Source: Thermaerobacter sp. FW80 (GTDB lineage: Bacteria > Bacillota > Sulfobacillia > Thermaerobacterales > Thermaerobacteraceae). From it: a DNA stretch of 64,000 bases. The stretch covers positions 2,765,245-2,829,244 of the forward strand of contig NZ_CP037895.1 in assembly GCF_004634385.1 (NCBI RefSeq), in the 5' to 3' direction. How positions within the stretch are numbered: the first letter of the stretch is position 1; each line of letters starts with the position of its first letter. The notes under the pieces were generated by a model. The model was not told the DNA's origin, did not search any database, and saw nothing but the letters and a program-made list of their open reading frames with translations. Positions 44,387 to 56,340 of this stretch are shown here, piece after piece. The translations under genes and the position numbers were made by a program.

Positions 44387-44785
44387 ATGGACGGCGAGGC
44401 GGCCGTCACCCGCGAGCCCGACGGACCAACGGAGGCCTGGCTGATCCTCGAGCGCCTCAAGGACCTGACGGAACAGAACGCGGGCTTGCGGCGTTGGGTG
44501 GAACAGGAGATCAAGGACCTTCGCCAGGAGGTCAAGGACGTCCGCCAGGAGATCAAGGATGTCCGCCAAGAGGTCAAGGACGTCCGCCAGGAGGTCGCGC
44601 AACTGCGCGAGGAAGTTCGGCAGGAGATCCGGAACGTCCGCCAGGACATGGCCGTCCTGGAACGGGGGCTCCGGGACGAGATCGCCGCGCTGCGGCGGGA
44701 CCACCGCACCCTGTGGGTCAGCACGCTGGCGGTGTGGGTGACCATCCTGGCGGCCCTGATCGGCCTCTACGCCCGCGGAGGCTGA
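44387..44785 (+). CDS. Coiled-coil protein with C-terminal membrane anchor
   Basis: Protein of 132 residues. Residues about 45-75 are built from a seven-residue unit, RQEVKDV or RQEIKDV, repeated four times at DNA level as 21-base tandem units, giving a heptad coiled coil. It continues as charged helix to about residue 110 and ends in one hydrophobic helix (LWVSTLAVWVTILAALIGLY) followed by ARGG. The topology is tail-anchored, as in DUF1640-like proteins. ATG 44387 follows GGAAGGACGGGAG. No functional partner is adjacent. Confidence 0.8.
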   Translation: MDGEAAVTREPDGPTEAWLILERLKDLTEQNAGLRRWVEQEIKDLRQEVKDVRQEIKDVRQEVKDVRQEVAQLREEVRQEIRNVRQDMAVLERGLRDEIAALRRDHRTLWVSTLAVWVTILAALIGLYARGG

Positions 44786-45161: not shown

Positions 45162-45279
45162 CTCTCTTATCCAGAGCGGTCGAGGGACGGGCCCGATGAC
45201 GCCGCGGCAACCGGCGACGCCGTCGTGCGGTGCCAACTCCCGCGGCTCCCCGCTGGGGATGCCGAGAGATGAGAGAAGG
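45162..45279 (+). ncRNA. SAM-I (S-box) riboswitch
   Basis: The leader contains the conserved S-box order: CTCTTATCCAGAGCGGTCGA, GGGACGGGCCCGATGACGCC, GCGGCAACCGGC, GGTGCCAACTCC and the closing GATGAGAGA. The ends pair as P1, and the kink-turn and SAM-binding elements are at the expected places. SAM binding should favour the terminator that follows and turn off methionine genes downstream. Confidence 0.96.
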
Positions 45280-45306
45280 GGGACGGGGATCGAACACGAC
45301 GTAGCA

Positions 45307-45338
45307 CGCCCCTTCCTCCTTCGGAAGGGGCGTTTCCT
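45307..45338 (+). terminator. Riboswitch-controlled terminator
   Basis: CGCCCCTTCC and GGAAGGGGCG pair around a 6-base loop, followed by TTTCCTTT. It lies 28 bases after the aptamer, as expected for the expression platform. Confidence 0.88.
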
Positions 45339-45415
45339 TTCGGTCGGGTCCTTTCGGTCGGGTCCTCTCGGTCGGTCCGTCGGGCCCTTTCGGTCGGGGC
45401 GTCTCCGTTCGGTCC
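45333..45415 (+). repeat. Short tandem repeats in the metF leader
   Basis: CCTTTCGGTCGGGT and variants (CTCTCGGTCGG, CCCTTTCGGTCGGG) recur about five times with a period near 14. They lie between the terminator and the start codon. No gene is encoded here. Confidence 0.6.
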
Positions 45416-45522
45416 GTGCCGCCGGCCCCGCCGAGCCGACCGGCGCCGATGGCGGGGTCTGCCCCGACCTCCCAGTCCAAGCGGGCTCCGCCCCGACCGC
45501 CAGGCCAGGAGGTGACCAACGG

Positions 45523-48354
45523 TTGAAGCTTCCGTCTGCCCGGCCCGACCCCGCTGGGCCGCCCCCAAGCCAGCGCCGTCCGGACGAACCGGCCATCGCC
45601 GGGGCCGGGTCGTCGACCGCCGAACGCGGCCGGTCCGACGTGACCCTGGCCCCCGGCGGGCGGGTCGGCGGGTCGCCATCCGCCGCGGGCGGGGGGGCGC
45701 CGTCCGCGCCGGTCGGAGGGCCGGCATCCGCTCCGGTCGGGGGGTCGCCATCCGCGCCGGTGGGGAGGGACGCTCCTTCCACCCCGCTCGGCGAACCCGC
45801 GGGCCCCCTCCAGTTCGCCCCGCCCTTCCTCGCCCTGGCCGACGCCGACCCCTCCTGGACCTTGGCGGCGGAGGCCGGGGACGCCGGCGCCCAGGGCGGG
45901 ACGGACCCCGACGGGACCGGCAGGGCGGCCGTGGCGGGCGCCGCCGCGGTCGCGTGGTGGCCGCTCACGCGCCCCCGTCCCGTCGAAGCGGTCCACCTCA
46001 CCGCCATCCGCAGCGGCGCCCGGCTGATCCGCACCCATACGCGATGGGCCAACGCGGCCTGGCTCCAGGATGCCACCGCGGCCCAGGTGCAGGATCTCAA
46101 CCTCTGGGCCGCCAAGCTGGCGCGGTCGGCCCGGGAGGTGGCCGGGGAGCCCTGCCTGGTCGCCGGCTACCTCGGCCCCCTGCCGCCCGCGGCGGCGTCC
46201 CTCGCGGACCACGATCCCGCGGCGGCGGTCGGCTGGTACCGGGACCAGGTGGCGGGCCTCCTGGCCGGCGGCGTGGACCTCTTCTGGATCGCCGCGCGGA
46301 CCGTGGCCGAGGCCCGCGGGGCGCTTCAGGCCGCCCGCGAGGCAGCCCGGCTGCCGGTCGGACTCCTGTGGGAGCCCGGCGGGGAGGCCGGCGCCATGGG
46401 GGCGGACGCCCAGGCGATCCAGCTGGTGGCGGCTCTCCAGGCGACGGGCATGCCCGACGCCCTCGGCGTCGCGGTGACCGGCGGACCGGCGGAGGCGGCG
46501 CCCTGGCTGGCGGCATTGCGCGACGCCGGCTGGGCCGGCCCCCTGTGGGTGAGCCTCGGGGAGCCGGAGACGCCCGAGCCCTCGGAAGCGGGCGGACGGG
46601 CTCCGGGCACGGGCGGCGGACCCGTCGTTGGCGCGCGGGGACGGACTCGGGACACGGGGAACGAACCCGTCGCTGGGGCGCACCGGCGGGCTGCGGGAAC
46701 GGGGAGCGAACCCGTCCCCGGGCAGCCGGACGGGCGGGGGGACGGTCGTCCCACCCGCCGGAGCGGGGCGCGGGGGAACGGAAGCCCCACCGCCGAGGAG
46801 CAAGCCGACCCCTGGGCGACGCTGCGCCTGTTGGGCGTGAGCTGGGTCGCGGGCACCGGCGCCCGGTCGCCTGCGCGCTTCGCGACCCTCGCCCGTCGGC
46901 TGCGGCAGGCCGGCGCCACCGCACCACGCCCCGCGGCCGGGGAGGCTGGCGGGTGGCGGGCCGACGCGCCTCCGTCGGCGGTGCGGGCCACGGGCGGCGC
47001 ATCGGTTCCCAGAGGGCCGGCCGAACCCTGCGGCCCGGAGGATCCGGTGAACCGGACGGCCTCCGCTGCCGCCCCGACGGGGACCGCCGGCGCCCCGGCG
47101 GCGACGGCGGGAGCTGGCCTCCCGGCCGATCGGGCCGACACCCCGGGGGCTCCCGATGCGGCGACGGTGGCGGGGACGAACCGGCGTGGCGTCGCCGGGC
47201 CCGGAACCCCCGCCTGGGGCGGCGGCACGGGCGGCGGCGTGCCGCCTGCGCCGGCGGAGGACCGGCTCGCGCGACCCCTCCCGCTGCGGGAGAAGCTGGG
47301 CCGCCGGTTCGTCATCAGCGTCGAGCTGGACCCGCCGCGCGGGCCCGTCACCACCAAGTTCGTCGCCGACGCCCGGACCGTGGCGGCCGCGGGCGCCGAC
47401 GCCGTCAACGTGGGCGACAGCCCGATGGCGCGACCTCGCATGGCCGCCCTGGCGGGCGCCTACCTGGTCCGCCACGCCGCCGGCATCGACGCCATCATGC
47501 ACTGCACGACCCGCGACCGCAACCTGATGGCGCTCCAGGCCGACCTCCTGGCGGCCCACGCCCTGGGGGTGCGCAACGTGCTGGCCCTGACCGGGGACCC
47601 TCCGCGGTTGGGGAACAGCGGCGCCTCGCCCGTCTACGACGTGGACTCCATCGGGCTCCTGGAGGTGCTGGCCGCGCTGCGCCGCGGCGAGGACCCCCAG
47701 GGCAATCCGCTCGGCGCCCCCGTCGACTTCACCGTCGCCTGCGCCCTGAGCCCCAACGCGGACGACCTGGAGCGGGAACTGGAGCGGTTCCGCCGCAAGC
47801 TGGCCGTGGGCGTCGTGGACTTCGTCATGACCCAGCCGCTCTACGAGCTCGAGCCCCTGGAGCGCGTCCTGGACCGGCTGGGCGGCTGCCCGGTCCCGAT
47901 CCTCCTGGGGGTGATGCCGCTGCACAGCGGCCGGCACGCCCACTACCTGCACCACCAGGTACCGGGCATCTCCATTCCCGATGCCGTGCGCGAGGCCCTG
48001 GACAAGGCCGGCGATCGCGGCCTGGAGGTGGGGCTGGAGCTGGCCGAGGCGGTGGTCGAGGCCGCCCGGCCGTACATCGCCGGCGTGTACGTGGTGGTCT
48101 CCTACGGCAAGGCCGAGCCGGTGGCCGCGTTCGTCCGGCGGCTGCGGGCCCGGTTCGACGAGCCCCGTCCGGCGGCGGAGGGGGCGGGGGCGACCGCTCC
48201 CCGCCCCGCCACCGCCGGGTCGGCTGCGGCCTGGCCGACCGACCACGGCTCGTCGACCCCGGGCGGAGGGATCGGCCCCCGGGCGGACTTCCCGCCGGCT
48301 TCCGGTGCGGCATCGCCGGTGGAGCAGGGGGAGGTGCGCCACCATGCCGGGTGA
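45523..48354 (+). CDS. Methylenetetrahydrofolate reductase fused to a degenerate homocysteine methyltransferase-like domain
   Basis: Protein of 943 residues. The C-terminal ~300 residues are a MetF-type reductase: FVISVELDPPRGPVTTKFVA, DAVNVGDSPMARPRM, NVLALTGDPPRLGN, SPNADDLERELERFRRKLAVG and DFVMTQPLYE. The N-terminal half resembles the barrel of the bifunctional YitJ family (IRSGARLIRTHTRWAN, VLAGGVDLFWIAARTVAEAR-like) but lacks the zinc ligands: the GxNC position reads GVAVTGGPA and the GGCCGT position reads VAGTGARSP. Long Ala/Pro/Gly inserts separate the parts. TTG 45523 follows AGGAGGTGA. It overlaps the next gene by 11 bases and is under SAM riboswitch control. Confidence 0.88.
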   Translation: MKLPSARPDPAGPPPSQRRPDEPAIAGAGSSTAERGRSDVTLAPGGRVGGSPSAAGGGAPSAPVGGPASAPVGGSPSAPVGRDAPSTPLGEPAGPLQFAPPFLALADADPSWTLAAEAGDAGAQGGTDPDGTGRAAVAGAAAVAWWPLTRPRPVEAVHLTAIRSGARLIRTHTRWANAAWLQDATAAQVQDLNLWAAKLARSAREVAGEPCLVAGYLGPLPPAAASLADHDPAAAVGWYRDQVAGLLAGGVDLFWIAARTVAEARGALQAAREAARLPVGLLWEPGGEAGAMGADAQAIQLVAALQATGMPDALGVAVTGGPAEAAPWLAALRDAGWAGPLWVSLGEPETPEPSEAGGRAPGTGGGPVVGARGRTRDTGNEPVAGAHRRAAGTGSEPVPGQPDGRGDGRPTRRSGARGNGSPTAEEQADPWATLRLLGVSWVAGTGARSPARFATLARRLRQAGATAPRPAAGEAGGWRADAPPSAVRATGGASVPRGPAEPCGPEDPVNRTASAAAPTGTAGAPAATAGAGLPADRADTPGAPDAATVAGTNRRGVAGPGTPAWGGGTGGGVPPAPAEDRLARPLPLREKLGRRFVISVELDPPRGPVTTKFVADARTVAAAGADAVNVGDSPMARPRMAALAGAYLVRHAAGIDAIMHCTTRDRNLMALQADLLAAHALGVRNVLALTGDPPRLGNSGASPVYDVDSIGLLEVLAALRRGEDPQGNPLGAPVDFTVACALSPNADDLERELERFRRKLAVGVVDFVMTQPLYELEPLERVLDRLGGCPVPILLGVMPLHSGRHAHYLHHQVPGISIPDAVREALDKAGDRGLEVGLELAEAVVEAARPYIAGVYVVVSYGKAEPVAAFVRRLRARFDEPRPAAEGAGATAPRPATAGSAAAWPTDHGSSTPGGGIGPRADFPPASGAASPVEQGEVRHHAG

Positions 48355-49735
48355 ACCCGACCGCGCTGCCACCACGGCGGGTCCAGGCGGGCAGCCCGCA
48401 GCCGCAGCGCACCCGTCGCCGACGCCGGCCGGCCCGGGGCTGGAGGGGGCCGGCGCACCCGCGGAGGCCCCCGGCGCCGCCGCTGGGCCGCCTCCTGCGT
48501 CCCGCGGGCTGCGGCTCGAGACCCGGCTCGTCCACGCGGGCGTCCGCCGCGACCCGCGCACGGGTTCGGTGGCCGTCCCGATCTACCAGACCGCGACCTA
48601 CGAACACCCGGGCCCCGGCCAGACCACGGGGTGGGACTACAGTCGCCTGCACAACCCGACCCGCGAGGCCTTCGAGGCGGCGGTGGCCGGGCTCGAAGAA
48701 GGCTTCGCCGCCGTGGCCTTCGCCTCCGGGATGGCGGCCATCACGGCGGTGCTGCACCTCTTGCGGCCGGGCGACCACCTGGTGGTCACCGAGGACCTCT
48801 ACGGCCACACGTGGCGCGTCCTGGAGGAGCTCTTCCGCCACCTGGGCATCGCCTACACCCTGGCCGACACCACCGACGCGGCGGCCGTGGCCGCCGCCCT
48901 GACCCCGTCCACGCGGGCCGTGCTGGTGGAGAGCCCGACCAACCCCTTGATGCGGGTCGCCGACCTGGACGGCCTGGCCGCCCTCTGCCGCGCCCGGCGC
49001 CTGTGGCTCGTGGTCGACTCGACCCTGTTCACGCCCCTCTTCCAGCGGCCTCTGGCCCGCGGGGCCGATGTGGTGGTGCACAGTGCCAGCAAGTACCTGG
49101 CCGGACACAACGACCTGGTGGCCGGCGTGGCGGTGGCGGCGACGCCGGCCCTGGCGGACGAACTGGCCTCCATCCGCACGGTGACCGGCGGGATCCTCGG
49201 ACCCCACGACGCCTGGCTGGCCGTCCGCGGCCTGAAGACCCTGGCGCTGCGCATGGAGCGGGCCCAGAGGAACGCGCTGACCCTGGCCCACTGGCTGGCG
49301 GCCCACCCCGCCGTGGCCGCCGTGTACTATCCGGGCCTGCCGTCGAGCCCGTTCTTCCGGCGATGTCTCCAGCAGGCGGCGGGGTTCGGCGCGATGCTGA
49401 GCTTCCGGCTGCGGGAGCCGGCGCGAGCGGAGCAGGTGCTGGCCCGCCTTCGCCTCGTCGTCTTCGCCGAGAGCTTCGGCGGGGTGGAGAGCCTGATCAC
49501 CCACCCGGCCACCACGACCCACAAGGAGATGCCGGCGGCGCTGCGGGAGCGGCTGGGCATCGACGCGGGGCTGTTGCGGCTGTCGGTGGGCATCGAGGCG
49601 GTGGACGACCTGGTCGCCGACCTGGAGGGCGCCCTGGGCGGTCCGTCGGCCCTCGGGGTGGCCGAGGCCGGGCAGCGGGCGGAGGCGACGCTGCGACAGC
49701 TCGCGACCCGGGAAGCGGCGGGCGCCAGGGCATGA
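48344..49735 (+). CDS. Cystathionine gamma-synthase/lyase-type PLP enzyme
   Basis: PLP-dependent transsulfuration enzyme of 463 residues. After a 60-residue Ala/Pro-rich extension the chain reads LETRLVHAGVRRDPRTGSVA, VPIYQTATYEH, DYSRLHNPTREAFEAAVAGL, and has the PLP Lys in VVHSASKYLAGHNDLVAG and the C-terminal ESLITHPATTTH. It could be MetB, MetC-like or an O-acylhomoserine sulfhydrylase; the operon with MetF and SAM riboswitch fits methionine synthesis. ATG 48344 overlaps the preceding stop. The last codons lie within a 74-base tandem repeat that continues downstream. Confidence 0.92.
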   Translation: MPGEPDRAATTAGPGGQPAAAAHPSPTPAGPGLEGAGAPAEAPGAAAGPPPASRGLRLETRLVHAGVRRDPRTGSVAVPIYQTATYEHPGPGQTTGWDYSRLHNPTREAFEAAVAGLEEGFAAVAFASGMAAITAVLHLLRPGDHLVVTEDLYGHTWRVLEELFRHLGIAYTLADTTDAAAVAAALTPSTRAVLVESPTNPLMRVADLDGLAALCRARRLWLVVDSTLFTPLFQRPLARGADVVVHSASKYLAGHNDLVAGVAVAATPALADELASIRTVTGGILGPHDAWLAVRGLKTLALRMERAQRNALTLAHWLAAHPAVAAVYYPGLPSSPFFRRCLQQAAGFGAMLSFRLREPARAEQVLARLRLVVFAESFGGVESLITHPATTTHKEMPAALRERLGIDAGLLRLSVGIEAVDDLVADLEGALGGPSALGVAEAGQRAEATLRQLATREAAGARA

Positions 49736-53327: not shown

Positions 53328-55871
53328 CTACCGCCGGCCGGCGGGCACCGCCGCCCACTCCTGGCGCAGCTCCCGCGCGGCCTGGACCATGTGGCGCAGG
53401 GCGGGTTCGACCTCCTCGTAGCGTCGGGTCTTGAGGCCGCAGTCGGGGTTCACCCAGAGCTGCCCGGGATCCAACACCGACGCCGCCTTGCGCAGCAGAT
53501 CCTTGATCTCGTCCACCGACGGCACCCGCGGCGAGTGGATGTCGTACACGCCGGGGCCGACGTCGCTGGGGTAGCGGTGCTCGCCGAAGGCGTCCAGGAG
53601 CTCCATTCCCGACCGGGACGCCTCGATGAGGATCACGTCGGCGTCCAGGGCGGCGATGGCGTCCAGGATGTCGTTGAACTCCGAGTAGCACATGTGGGTG
53701 TGGACCTGGGTCTCGTCCCGCAAGCCGCCGGTCACCAGGCGGAAGCACTCGGTGGCCCAGGCCAGGTAGGCCGCGCGATCGGCCCGCCGCAGGGGCATGG
53801 CCTCGCGGAAGGCCGGTTCGTCGATCTGGATCACCCGGATCCCCGCTGCCTCCAGGTCCTGGACCTCGTCGCGGATGGCCAGGGCGATCTGGCGGCACGT
53901 CACCTCCCGCGGCTGGTCGTCGCGGACGAAGGACCACTGCAGGATGGTGACGGGTCCCGTCAACATGCCCTTGACGGGCCGGTCCGTCAGGGACTGGGCG
54001 TAGGTGATCCACTTCACCGTGATGGGGCCGGGCCGAGCCACGTCGCCGTAGAGGATCGGCGGCTTGACGCATCGGCTGCCGTAGCTCTGGACCCAGCCGT
54101 GGCGGGTGAAGGCGAAGCCCTCCAGCTGTTCCGCGAAGTACTCCACCATGTCGTTGCGCTCGGGTTCGCCGTGGACCAGCACGTCCAGGCCCAGCTCCTC
54201 CTGCAGCCGGATCACCCGGCGGATCTCGGCGCGGATGCCCTCCTCGTAGGTCGCGTCGTCGATCTCCCCCCGCCGCCACCGGGCCCGGAGCCGGCGCACC
54301 TCCGGCGTCTGGGGGAAGGAGCCGATGGTGGTGGTGGGAAGGAGCGGCAGCCCGAGCCGCTCCCGCTGGCGCGCGCGGCGCTCGGGCGCCTTGGAGGGCC
54401 GCCGGGCGTCGTCGGGCTGGAGCCGCGCCAGCCGCTCCTGCACCTCGGGTCGGGTCCGGCGGGGCGAGCTGCGACGGGCGGCCACGGCCGCACGACTGGC
54501 GGCCAGGGCGTCGGCCACGGCCTGCCGCCCCTCGTTCAGGGCGCGGGTGAGGACGGCCACCTCCTCCAGCTTCTGCTTCGCGAAGGCCAGCCAGCCCTTG
54601 ATCTCCGGGTCGAACTCCGTCTCCAGCTCCAGGTCGATGGGCACGTGCAGCAAGGAGCACGACGGCGCCACGAAGATGCGTTCGGGTCCCAGCACCTCCC
54701 GGGCGCGTTCGAGGCGCTCCAGGGCCGCCTCCAGGTCGGTCCGCCAGACGTTGCGGCCGTCGACCACGCCCAGGGACAGGTGCATGGTCGGCGGCACGCC
54801 GGCCGCGAGCACCTGCTCCAGCTGCCCGGGGTCCCGCACCAGATCCAGGTGCAGGGCCTGCACGGGCAGGCTCAGGGCCAGCTCCAGGTTGTCCCGCAGG
54901 CCTTCGAAGTAGGTGGCGAGGAAGAGCCTCAGCCCCGGCGCCGCCTGGGCCAGCGCGGCGTAGGCCCGCCGAAAGGCGGCGCGGGCCGGTTCGTCCAGGT
55001 CGAGGACCAGGAAGGGCTCGTCGAGCTGCACCCACGTGGCGCCGGCGGCCTGAAGCTCCCGCAGCACCTGCCCGTACACGGGCAGGAGGCCGTCGAGCAG
55101 GGCGAGCCGCGGATCGGACGAGACGCCCTGGGCCACCCCGGCGGCCGAGGGCGCCGGGGCCGAACCCTGGCCAACCGACCCGGACGAACCGGCCGACCGG
55201 CTCGCGAACCCCGGCCTGCTGCCGTCGGCGGCCGCGGACGCCGTGGCGCCGCGAATCTTCGCCAGCAGGAGGAAGCTGACCGGCCCCAGCAGCACCGGAC
55301 GCGCCTCGAACCCTAGCGCCCGGGCCTCGCGGAACTCCTCCACCACCTTGCGGGACGCCAGATGGAAGGTCTGGCCCGGCTCCAGCTCGGGCACGATGTA
55401 GTGGTAGTTCGTGTCGAACCACTTGGTCATCTCCAGGGCGGGGACGCCCTGGCCGGGCGTCCCCCGGGCCATGGCGAAGTAGACGTCCAGGGGCACCCCC
55501 GGGGGGTCGGCTACCGGAGCGTCGCCGGATCCCGCCGGCCCGTCCGCCCCGAGCCCGCCCTCGGCCCCCGTCGTGGCGCGACGCGCGGCGGCAGGGTCGC
55601 CCGACCCCTGCGGCGTCCAGCCGTAGCGGGCCGGGACGGCGCCCACCATGCAAGCCGTGTCCAGCACGTGGTCGTAGAGGGAGAAGTCGCCGGCCGGGAC
55701 CACGTCGAGGCCGGCCTGCCGCTGCAGCTCCCAGTGGCGACGCCGCAGCTCGGCCGCCCTGCGGAGCAGCTCGTCCGCCGGGATCTTGCCGTCCCAGTAG
55801 GCCTCGAGGGCCTGCTTGAGTTCCCGGCCCGCGCCGATGCGGGGGAAACCCAGGTTCGTCGCCAGCGCCAT
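53328..55871 (-). CDS. metE: Cobalamin-independent methionine synthase
   Basis: Zinc enzyme of 847 residues that transfers a methyl group from methyltetrahydrofolate-triglutamate to homocysteine. N-terminal barrel: [36 protein letters not shown]-terminal barrel: [38 protein letters not shown], zinc ligands in [11 protein letters not shown] and NPDCGLKTR. It is longer than the usual ~755 residues because of two low-complexity inserts, one of which carries the 13-base motif. ATG 55871 follows GAGGAGGCGAGG. A SAM-I riboswitch lies upstream. Confidence 0.96.
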
Positions 55872-55980: not shown

Positions 55981-55991
55981 CCTCGCCTTTC

Positions 55992-56102
55992 CCTATCTCC
56001 CGGGAGGACGTCTCCCGCGGGAATTGGCACCGTGCCGCCGCGGACGCCCGGCGGCCGGTTGCCGTGGCGTCATCGGGCCCGTCCCTCGGCCACTCTCGAT
56101 AG
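55992..56102 (-). ncRNA. SAM-I (S-box) riboswitch of metE
   Basis: Read on the minus strand: CTATCGAGAGTGGCCGAGGG, ACGGGCCCGATGACGCC, ACGGCAACCGG, GGTGCCAATTCCCGC and closing GGGAGATAGGG. All S-box core elements are in order, and the ends pair. Its sequence is clearly related to the copy at 45162. High SAM should stop metE expression. The promoter is not obvious in the 240 bases to the right. Confidence 0.95.
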
Positions 56103-56340
56103 GGCGTCGTGCTGGGGTGTGACTGGGATCGCGCCGCGGTCGCGCAGTGCGCGATGCGGGCCGCGGACGTTGGGGACTGCTATTCGGGGTGCGGACGCCA
56201 AGTCCTTCCCCCGGCCACCTCCCTTCATGGCGTCGCGAGCCGCTTCCTGCAGGGCGCCGGGCCGCGGTGTCTGGGCCTGCCAACGCATCCAACCCGCCGC
56301 CGGCGCAGGCTCGGGCTCCCCCGTCACAGGTCGATGCCCG

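Follow-up and report, generated by a model that had tools for sequence, protein, structure and literature searches.

A homocysteine methyltransferase–methylenetetrahydrofolate reductase fusion without zinc cysteines in Thermaerobacter, with a predicted barrel that appears to be maintained

The fusion and its closest relatives

The closest described relatives of the protein considered here are the YitJ-type enzymes (NF006396, PRK08645; YitJ of B. subtilis), in which a homocysteine methyltransferase (HMT) domain precedes a methylenetetrahydrofolate reductase (MTHFR) domain in one chain. YitJ has been assigned a role as an S-adenosylmethionine (SAM)-using homocysteine methyltransferase (PMC6302742), and a reported engineering step in B. 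subtilis replaced yitJ with the E. coli metF (PMC9618320). We analysed a 64,000-nucleotide stretch of the Thermaerobacter sp. FW80 genome (contig NZ_CP037895.1, positions 2,765,245 to 2,829,244, forward strand; hereafter the window), which encodes an HMT–MTHFR fusion that has lost all three zinc-binding cysteines. On balance, we favor a reading in which this protein is a working MTHFR that carries a dead but maintained HMT barrel as a scaffold.

The nearest parallel is the N-terminal barrel of MetE, whose sites are described as ‘obliterated’ by mutation; the bulky aromatic residues Trp146, Phe230, and Tyr232 now occupy the former site (Pejchal and Ludwig 2004, PMC539065). In both cases, a disabled zinc/homocysteine barrel is kept in one chain with an active domain; in the model of the window protein, the placement of the barrel relative to the MTHFR half is uncertain. 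MetE gained its dead barrel through an internal duplication, and that barrel faces the active one. In the window protein, two enzymes are fused, and the dead barrel forms the first half, with an MTHFR as its partner. We draw an analogy only, and a sequence relation was neither found nor is claimed. Taken as an analogy, the two cases suggest that zinc/homocysteine barrels have lost their site at least twice while attached to an active partner. The parts of the fusion are as follows.

45523..48354, + strand: HMT–MTHFR fusion gene, 943 aa, TTG start, stop codon ending at 48354
45829..46914, + strand: putative pseudo-HMT barrel, aa 103-464, insert 46558-46809 included (PF02574, 67.2 bits, cut-off 22; eight model strands)
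46474..46476, + strand: first zinc-cysteine position (GxNC), now Val318, from alignment with canonical enzymes
46558..46809, + strand: low-complexity insert after strand 7, ahead of the helix that precedes strand 8 (predicted local confidence, pLDDT, mostly <40)
46855..46860, + strand: position of the Cys-Cys pair (GGCC), now Thr445-Gly446, from alignment with canonical enzymes
46918..47280, + strand: Ala/Gly/Pro-rich linker joining the two halves, from alignment
47281..48159, + strand: MTHFR (MetF) domain, intact (PF02219, 92.9 bits, cut-off 24)

Pfam places S-methyl_trans at aa 145-334, N-terminal to MTHFR at aa 595-831. The whole protein matches the bifunctional HMT/MTHFR model NF006396 in two stretches with 365.4 bits, below the curated cut-off of 453, and its MTHFR half scores 53.2 against the equivalog TIGR00676, under the cut-off of 293.7. 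The predicted fold of this half and its E, D, and Q motifs are those of stand-alone MetF/MTHFR proteins (PF02219); the E, GDPP, and TQ motifs align with T. thermophilus MTHFR, and we take their Glu, Asp, and Gln to be the catalytic residues. In a tree of MTHFR sequences, the window half groups with the fusion MTHFRs and not with 13 stand-alone ones. The fusion is YitJ-type by domain order and descent, but it lacks the zinc cysteines and falls below the family cut-off. It also shares with that type the same SAM riboswitch control, found in the window, in three congeners, and in genomes G376, G037, and G012. Besides the cysteines and the score, it departs from the type in the loss of DGAxGT and PNAG, in its long inserts, and in the wide separation of its start and first strand from the remaining barrel.

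Loss of the zinc site and its descent

We compared the window genome (G000) with three Thermaerobacter congeners (G001, G002, and G003). In the window protein, GVAVTGG (from aa 315) aligns with GxNC, and VAGTGARS (from aa 442) aligns with the GGCCGT of canonical enzymes, with Val318, Thr445, and Gly446 replacing the three cysteines. Counting along the alignment, the equivalents in T. maritima MetH are Cys207, 272, and 273, which we take to be its zinc ligands. The GxNC column reads V, T, V, and A in G000, G001, G002, and G003, respectively, while the Cys-Cys column reads T-G in all four. DGAxGT is replaced by DADPSW or DGDPSW in the genus, PNAG is absent, and the strand-4 Glu is kept in G001-G003 but lost in G000. 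The ligand-less state is common to four genomes, which rules out a frame error or a bad assembly.

A sequence-only reading of the window had already placed the gene at these coordinates and had reported both the loss of the ligands and an intact reductase half; each of these points is borne out. It had also allowed that other cysteines might restore the site. None does so: within the HMT half, the four genomes share no invariant Cys or His other than H158 and C211, and the predicted model places H158 in a helix and C211 just before strand 3, both off the catalytic loops.

All three zinc cysteines are absent in 4/4 Thermaerobacter genomes and in 0/61 readable fusions of a phylum set. This set comprised 398 genomes, 62 of which had a match above the NF006396 cut-off; the 61 fusions read were 60 of these plus the one in G022, with G064 and G110 left out since they offered no open reading frame >400 aa. 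In the same class, 11/11 canonical HMT domains that extend over the motifs keep NC and GGCC (L044, which ends before the motifs, was left out, and L041-L043 repeat others). A second survey chose loci by two MTHFR peptides; of the 33 loci obtained, 25 contained both halves (L116, an HMT without MTHFR, was not counted as a fusion). The cysteines were kept in 25/25 (22 GGCC and 3 GACC); L123 is the G376 contig again, leaving 24 further loci, and other overlaps with the phylum set are possible. Sampling above the NF006396 cut-off is biased toward intact fusions, because ligand-less ones would score below it as those of Thermaerobacter do, and others may hide there. Only G000 and G002, among the listed matches confined to the MTHFR half, lay in long frames without an HMT match. 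Titles and abstract openings in the literature, a limited coverage from which we claim no absence from print, yielded no ligand-less HMT/MTHFR fusion.

A midpoint-rooted tree of 78 MTHFR halves (61 fusions, 4 from Thermaerobacter, and 13 stand-alone) grouped the Thermaerobacter four together (100/99), with the ligand-intact G376 as their sister (100/92), nested in a clade of ligand-intact fusions. Because the Thermaerobacter halves nest among ligand-keeping relatives, the simplest account is a single derived loss on the Thermaerobacter stem. The genus offers a clean natural example of an enzyme half that appears to have lost its chemistry and kept its barrel, and a sister lineage with intact ligands is available for comparison. 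Automatic annotation would name the protein a bifunctional methionine-forming enzyme and so add to Thermaerobacter models a second methionine synthase that is probably absent.

The retained barrel and its possible role

AlphaFold2 was run on residues 93-879 with an 18-row alignment. The model, a check that the sequence-only reading had proposed, contains the full eight-strand barrel of the HMT fold; most ten-residue barrel blocks have pLDDT of 84-96, the inserts are unstructured, and the mean pLDDT is 74.6. VIA-align superposed model residues 4-368 on E. coli MmuM (5dmm) with Z 27.9 and a root-mean-square deviation of 2.6 over 260 residues. The predicted fold is similarly close to BHMT (1lt8, Z 26.4) and to the homocysteine module of MetH (8g3h, Z 26.8), the other PF02574 proteins compared, but their zinc site and homocysteine loops are missing from the window barrel. 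As a control for whether canonical rows had forced this fold, we predicted the HMT half from the four Thermaerobacter rows only. Strands 2-8 still formed, and each of the 21 best PDB rows was a homocysteine methyltransferase or a methionine synthase (Z 15.6-13.1; next barrel 12.0). The models predict that the HMT-family (beta/alpha)8 barrel fold has been retained.

Selection was estimated as the ratio of nonsynonymous to synonymous rates (dN/dS, NG86, bootstrap 95% intervals) for G001 and G003, the closest and unsaturated pair. The ratio was 0.37 (0.18-0.65) for barrel strands 2-8, 0.40 (0.23-0.69) for the whole HMT half including inserts, 1.36 (0.64-3.37) for the linker, and 0.08 (0.02-0.19) for the tightly conserved MTHFR half. 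Neutral simulation of the barrel gave a median of 1.13 and a 95% range of 0.63-2.55; the lowest of 300 runs was 0.46, so that 0/300 were as low as observed. Other pairs showed the same order (core 0.29-0.40, linkers 0.60-0.73, MTHFR 0.06-0.11), with dS near saturation and core columns picked as alignable.

Using elements taken from the predicted model, we counted columns invariant in the four genomes: 23/28 in alpha-beta loops (82%), 24/40 in strands, 19/36 in beta-alpha loops, 64/155 in helices, and 0/9 in helix-helix loops. Mean pairwise identity, computed with strand 1 unaligned, ranks the elements differently in the two groups. In eight ligand-intact fusions, the beta-alpha (catalytic) loops lead with 0.63, followed by alpha-beta loops (0.54), strands (0.47), and helices (0.39), whereas Thermaerobacter has its highest value in the alpha-beta loops (0.88), ahead of the strands (0.75), the beta-alpha loops (0.67), and the helices (0.59). 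Mapped on the model, conservation has shifted from the catalytic loops to the strands and the opposite loops, as expected when a fold outlasts its chemistry. With a barrel that is predicted to fold and is under purifying selection, free decay is disfavored. The sequence-only reading had called it a structural or regulatory relic, and it is the structural or regulatory part of this phrase that agrees with the predicted fold and the selection.

In the scaffold reading, the fusion protein would act as an MTHFR only. Its zinc site, homocysteine loops, and PNAG loop would have been lost once, on the Thermaerobacter stem, and with them the methyltransferase activity, while the (beta/alpha)8 barrel would still be made and kept, serving the fused reductase of this thermophile as a platform for folding, stability, or assembly. 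The 5-methyltetrahydrofolate formed by the reductase half would then pass to the separate MetE to give methionine. The fusion can simply be cut, making the question of why a dead domain is kept directly testable.

Several results weigh against this account. The dN/dS of the low-complexity N-terminal tail (0.47, 0.22-1.08) and of insert 1 (0.48, 0.19-1.39) is not clearly above that of the barrel, whose upper bound (0.65) reaches just past the start of the neutral range (0.63), and the barrel estimate comes from one unsaturated pair with 21 nonsynonymous and 22 synonymous changes. Some residues on the catalytic face are conserved (DxDPSW, LGPLP), as a new ligand site would also produce. The four-row control had a mean pLDDT of 61.8 and did not form strand 1, and the full model has a predicted template modelling score of 0.49, so that the placement of the barrel relative to the MTHFR half is uncertain.

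It is conceivable, if unlikely, that the emptied pocket has been rebuilt to bind SAM, methionine, homocysteine, folate, or a partner, and thereby controls the reductase. New shared residues do replace the old motifs. The HMT halves of Thermaerobacter hold 13-17 Trp each, where 11 canonical domains have 1-4. In DGAxGT, the T present in 11/11 of those domains has become W in 4/4 Thermaerobacter genomes, and the T that ends the GGCCGT motif has done so in 3/4. The same halves hold only 3-5 Phe plus Tyr, compared with 9-19 in canonical domains, and since Trp (TGG) also rises as Phe and Tyr fall under GC pressure, such pressure may contribute to the gain, although the linkers before the MTHFR half have only 1-2 Trp per 95 aa. 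The beta-alpha loops retain an appreciable identity (the 0.67 given above), but the catalytic face is less conserved than the strands and alpha-beta loops, the reverse of what a ligand site should show. Eukaryotic MTHFR, which is inhibited by SAM, provides a precedent for a regulated reductase (PMC6414673); in the window, SAM control is already exerted by the riboswitch, and the candidate pocket has no known ligand. A more specific and distinctly speculative proposal is that the barrel is a dedicated noncatalytic control or assembly domain, whose Trp-lined, metal-free pocket senses a methionine-cycle metabolite and sets MTHFR activity. Such a domain would be a bacterial functional counterpart, with an unrelated fold, of the SAM-responsive domain of eukaryotic MTHFR.

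We are also doubtful that the barrel is a passive relic, jobless and carried along by its fusion to an essential enzyme, with selection acting against misfolding alone. A barrel dN/dS more than four times that of the MTHFR half, the ratios of the N-terminal tail and insert 1, the varying first ligand position, and the strand-4 Glu lost in G000 all fit such a relic. Set against them are a barrel dN/dS under all 300 neutral simulations, a reading frame unbroken in 4/4 genomes, alpha-beta loops that are 82% invariant, and the fact that this half was never deleted although the frame could have been kept. The accumulated long inserts, which a relic would also explain, were considered as a mark of decay and rejected. 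They are real, as the sequence-only reading had noted: ~84 low-confidence residues (aa 346-429) follow strand 7, an insert much shorter in the congeners, and a linker of ~120 aa precedes the MTHFR half. They are not special to the HMT domain, however, because MetE of the same genus carries such inserts too, making them a habit of the genus and no sign of loss. MetE of the window (53328-55871) and of the congeners is likewise broken by in-frame low-complexity inserts, and matches TIGR01371 in 2-3 pieces of one frame in G000-G003.

A surviving methyltransferase, working without zinc or with other ligands and possibly on another acceptor, is very improbable. The retained fold (as predicted) and some invariant acidic residues (D107, D109, E155, E205, D252, E263, E273, E288, and D312) would fit it; the joint loss of three Cys, PNAG, and DGAxGT and the position of the only invariant Cys and His (C211 and H158) off the catalytic loops speak against it. 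We know of no PF02574 member that works without its zinc cysteines.

MetE, control elements, and neighboring genes

MetE is encoded separately under its own SAM riboswitch, as the sequence-only reading had stated.

53328..55871 (approximate), - strand: full-length MetE (NF003556, 1146.5 bits)
55990..56105, - strand: SAM riboswitch upstream of MetE (83.1 bits)

MetE uses one His, one Glu, and two Cys as its ligands, in the order His, Cys, Glu, Cys (PMC539065). The window MetE carries NPDCGLK, and its H-x-C, E, and C ligand motifs are present. In G000, the sole PF02574 match is the fusion and there is no PF02965 match, leaving MetE as the methionine synthase found in this genome. A hidden MetH was considered and rejected: across 41 genomes no PF02965 match rose above the cut-off, with one weak match below it in G040.

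The sequence-only reading had suggested that methyl transfer may have moved to MetE, leaving the fused domain as a relic. As a cause this is not supported. Among 13 genomes tested, full-length MetE occurs in G000-G003, G376, and G339, yet G376 and G339 keep a ligand-intact fusion beside it; G295 and G361 keep the zinc ligands and have no MetE match. MetE probably predates the ligand loss and made it affordable, but because the sister lineage G376, and also G339, hold both MetE and a ligand-intact fusion, its presence is permissive and not sufficient.

The arrangement of these genes varies. In G376, the full-length MetE lies ~65 bp downstream of the fusion; the two genes are direct neighbors that share a strand and a single upstream SAM riboswitch (L086), perhaps the ancestral order. 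MetE matches in G022, G037, G012, G400, and G224 are partial and come from short genes. In these genomes (L026, L027, and L028 for the first three), two short MetE-like genes stand just upstream of a ligand-intact fusion; their frames are ~330-480 aa in most, with no full-length MetE, a split or core MetE arrangement. G004 and G005, same-family and same-order genomes, have full-length MetE, but neither the fusion nor PF02574 finds a match in them; the G004 assembly consists of 580 contigs.

The remaining features around the fusion are listed below.

45164..45275, + strand: S-box SAM riboswitch (RF00162) preceding the fusion gene (80 bits, E 3.3e-17)
45306..45341, + strand: likely intrinsic terminator of this riboswitch, a GC hairpin followed by a T-rich run
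45507..45515, + strand: Shine-Dalgarno sequence of the fusion, AGGAGGTGA, read from the sequence
48344..49735, + strand: Cys/Met metabolism pyridoxal phosphate enzyme gene (cystathionine gamma-synthase/lyase type), overlapping the end of the fusion (PF01053, 5.1e-136)

A riboswitch also lies 5' of the fusion in 3/3 congeners and in G376. The terminator hairpin is seen in the fold of 45296-45345 (-24.9 kcal/mol). In 3/3 congeners, a GTG start occupies the equivalent site, preceded by GGAGGTGA instead of AGGAGGTGA. The C-terminal peptide of the fusion, EVRHHAG, is conserved (EVRPHAG in G002) because the start signals of the overlapping PF01053 gene, its Shine-Dalgarno sequence and ATG, lie within the last codons of the fusion (48331-48354). 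Upstream, on the + strand at 44400-44785, a frame whose translation shows heptad-like repeats (DLRQEVKDVRQEIKDVRQEV) and has a hydrophobic C terminus may encode a small membrane-anchored coiled-coil protein. A search of phages gave three partial MTHFR matches; a gene of Microcystis phage MaAM05 annotated as yitJ (MW495066.1 238014-238790) has 34.2% identity to the MTHFR half.

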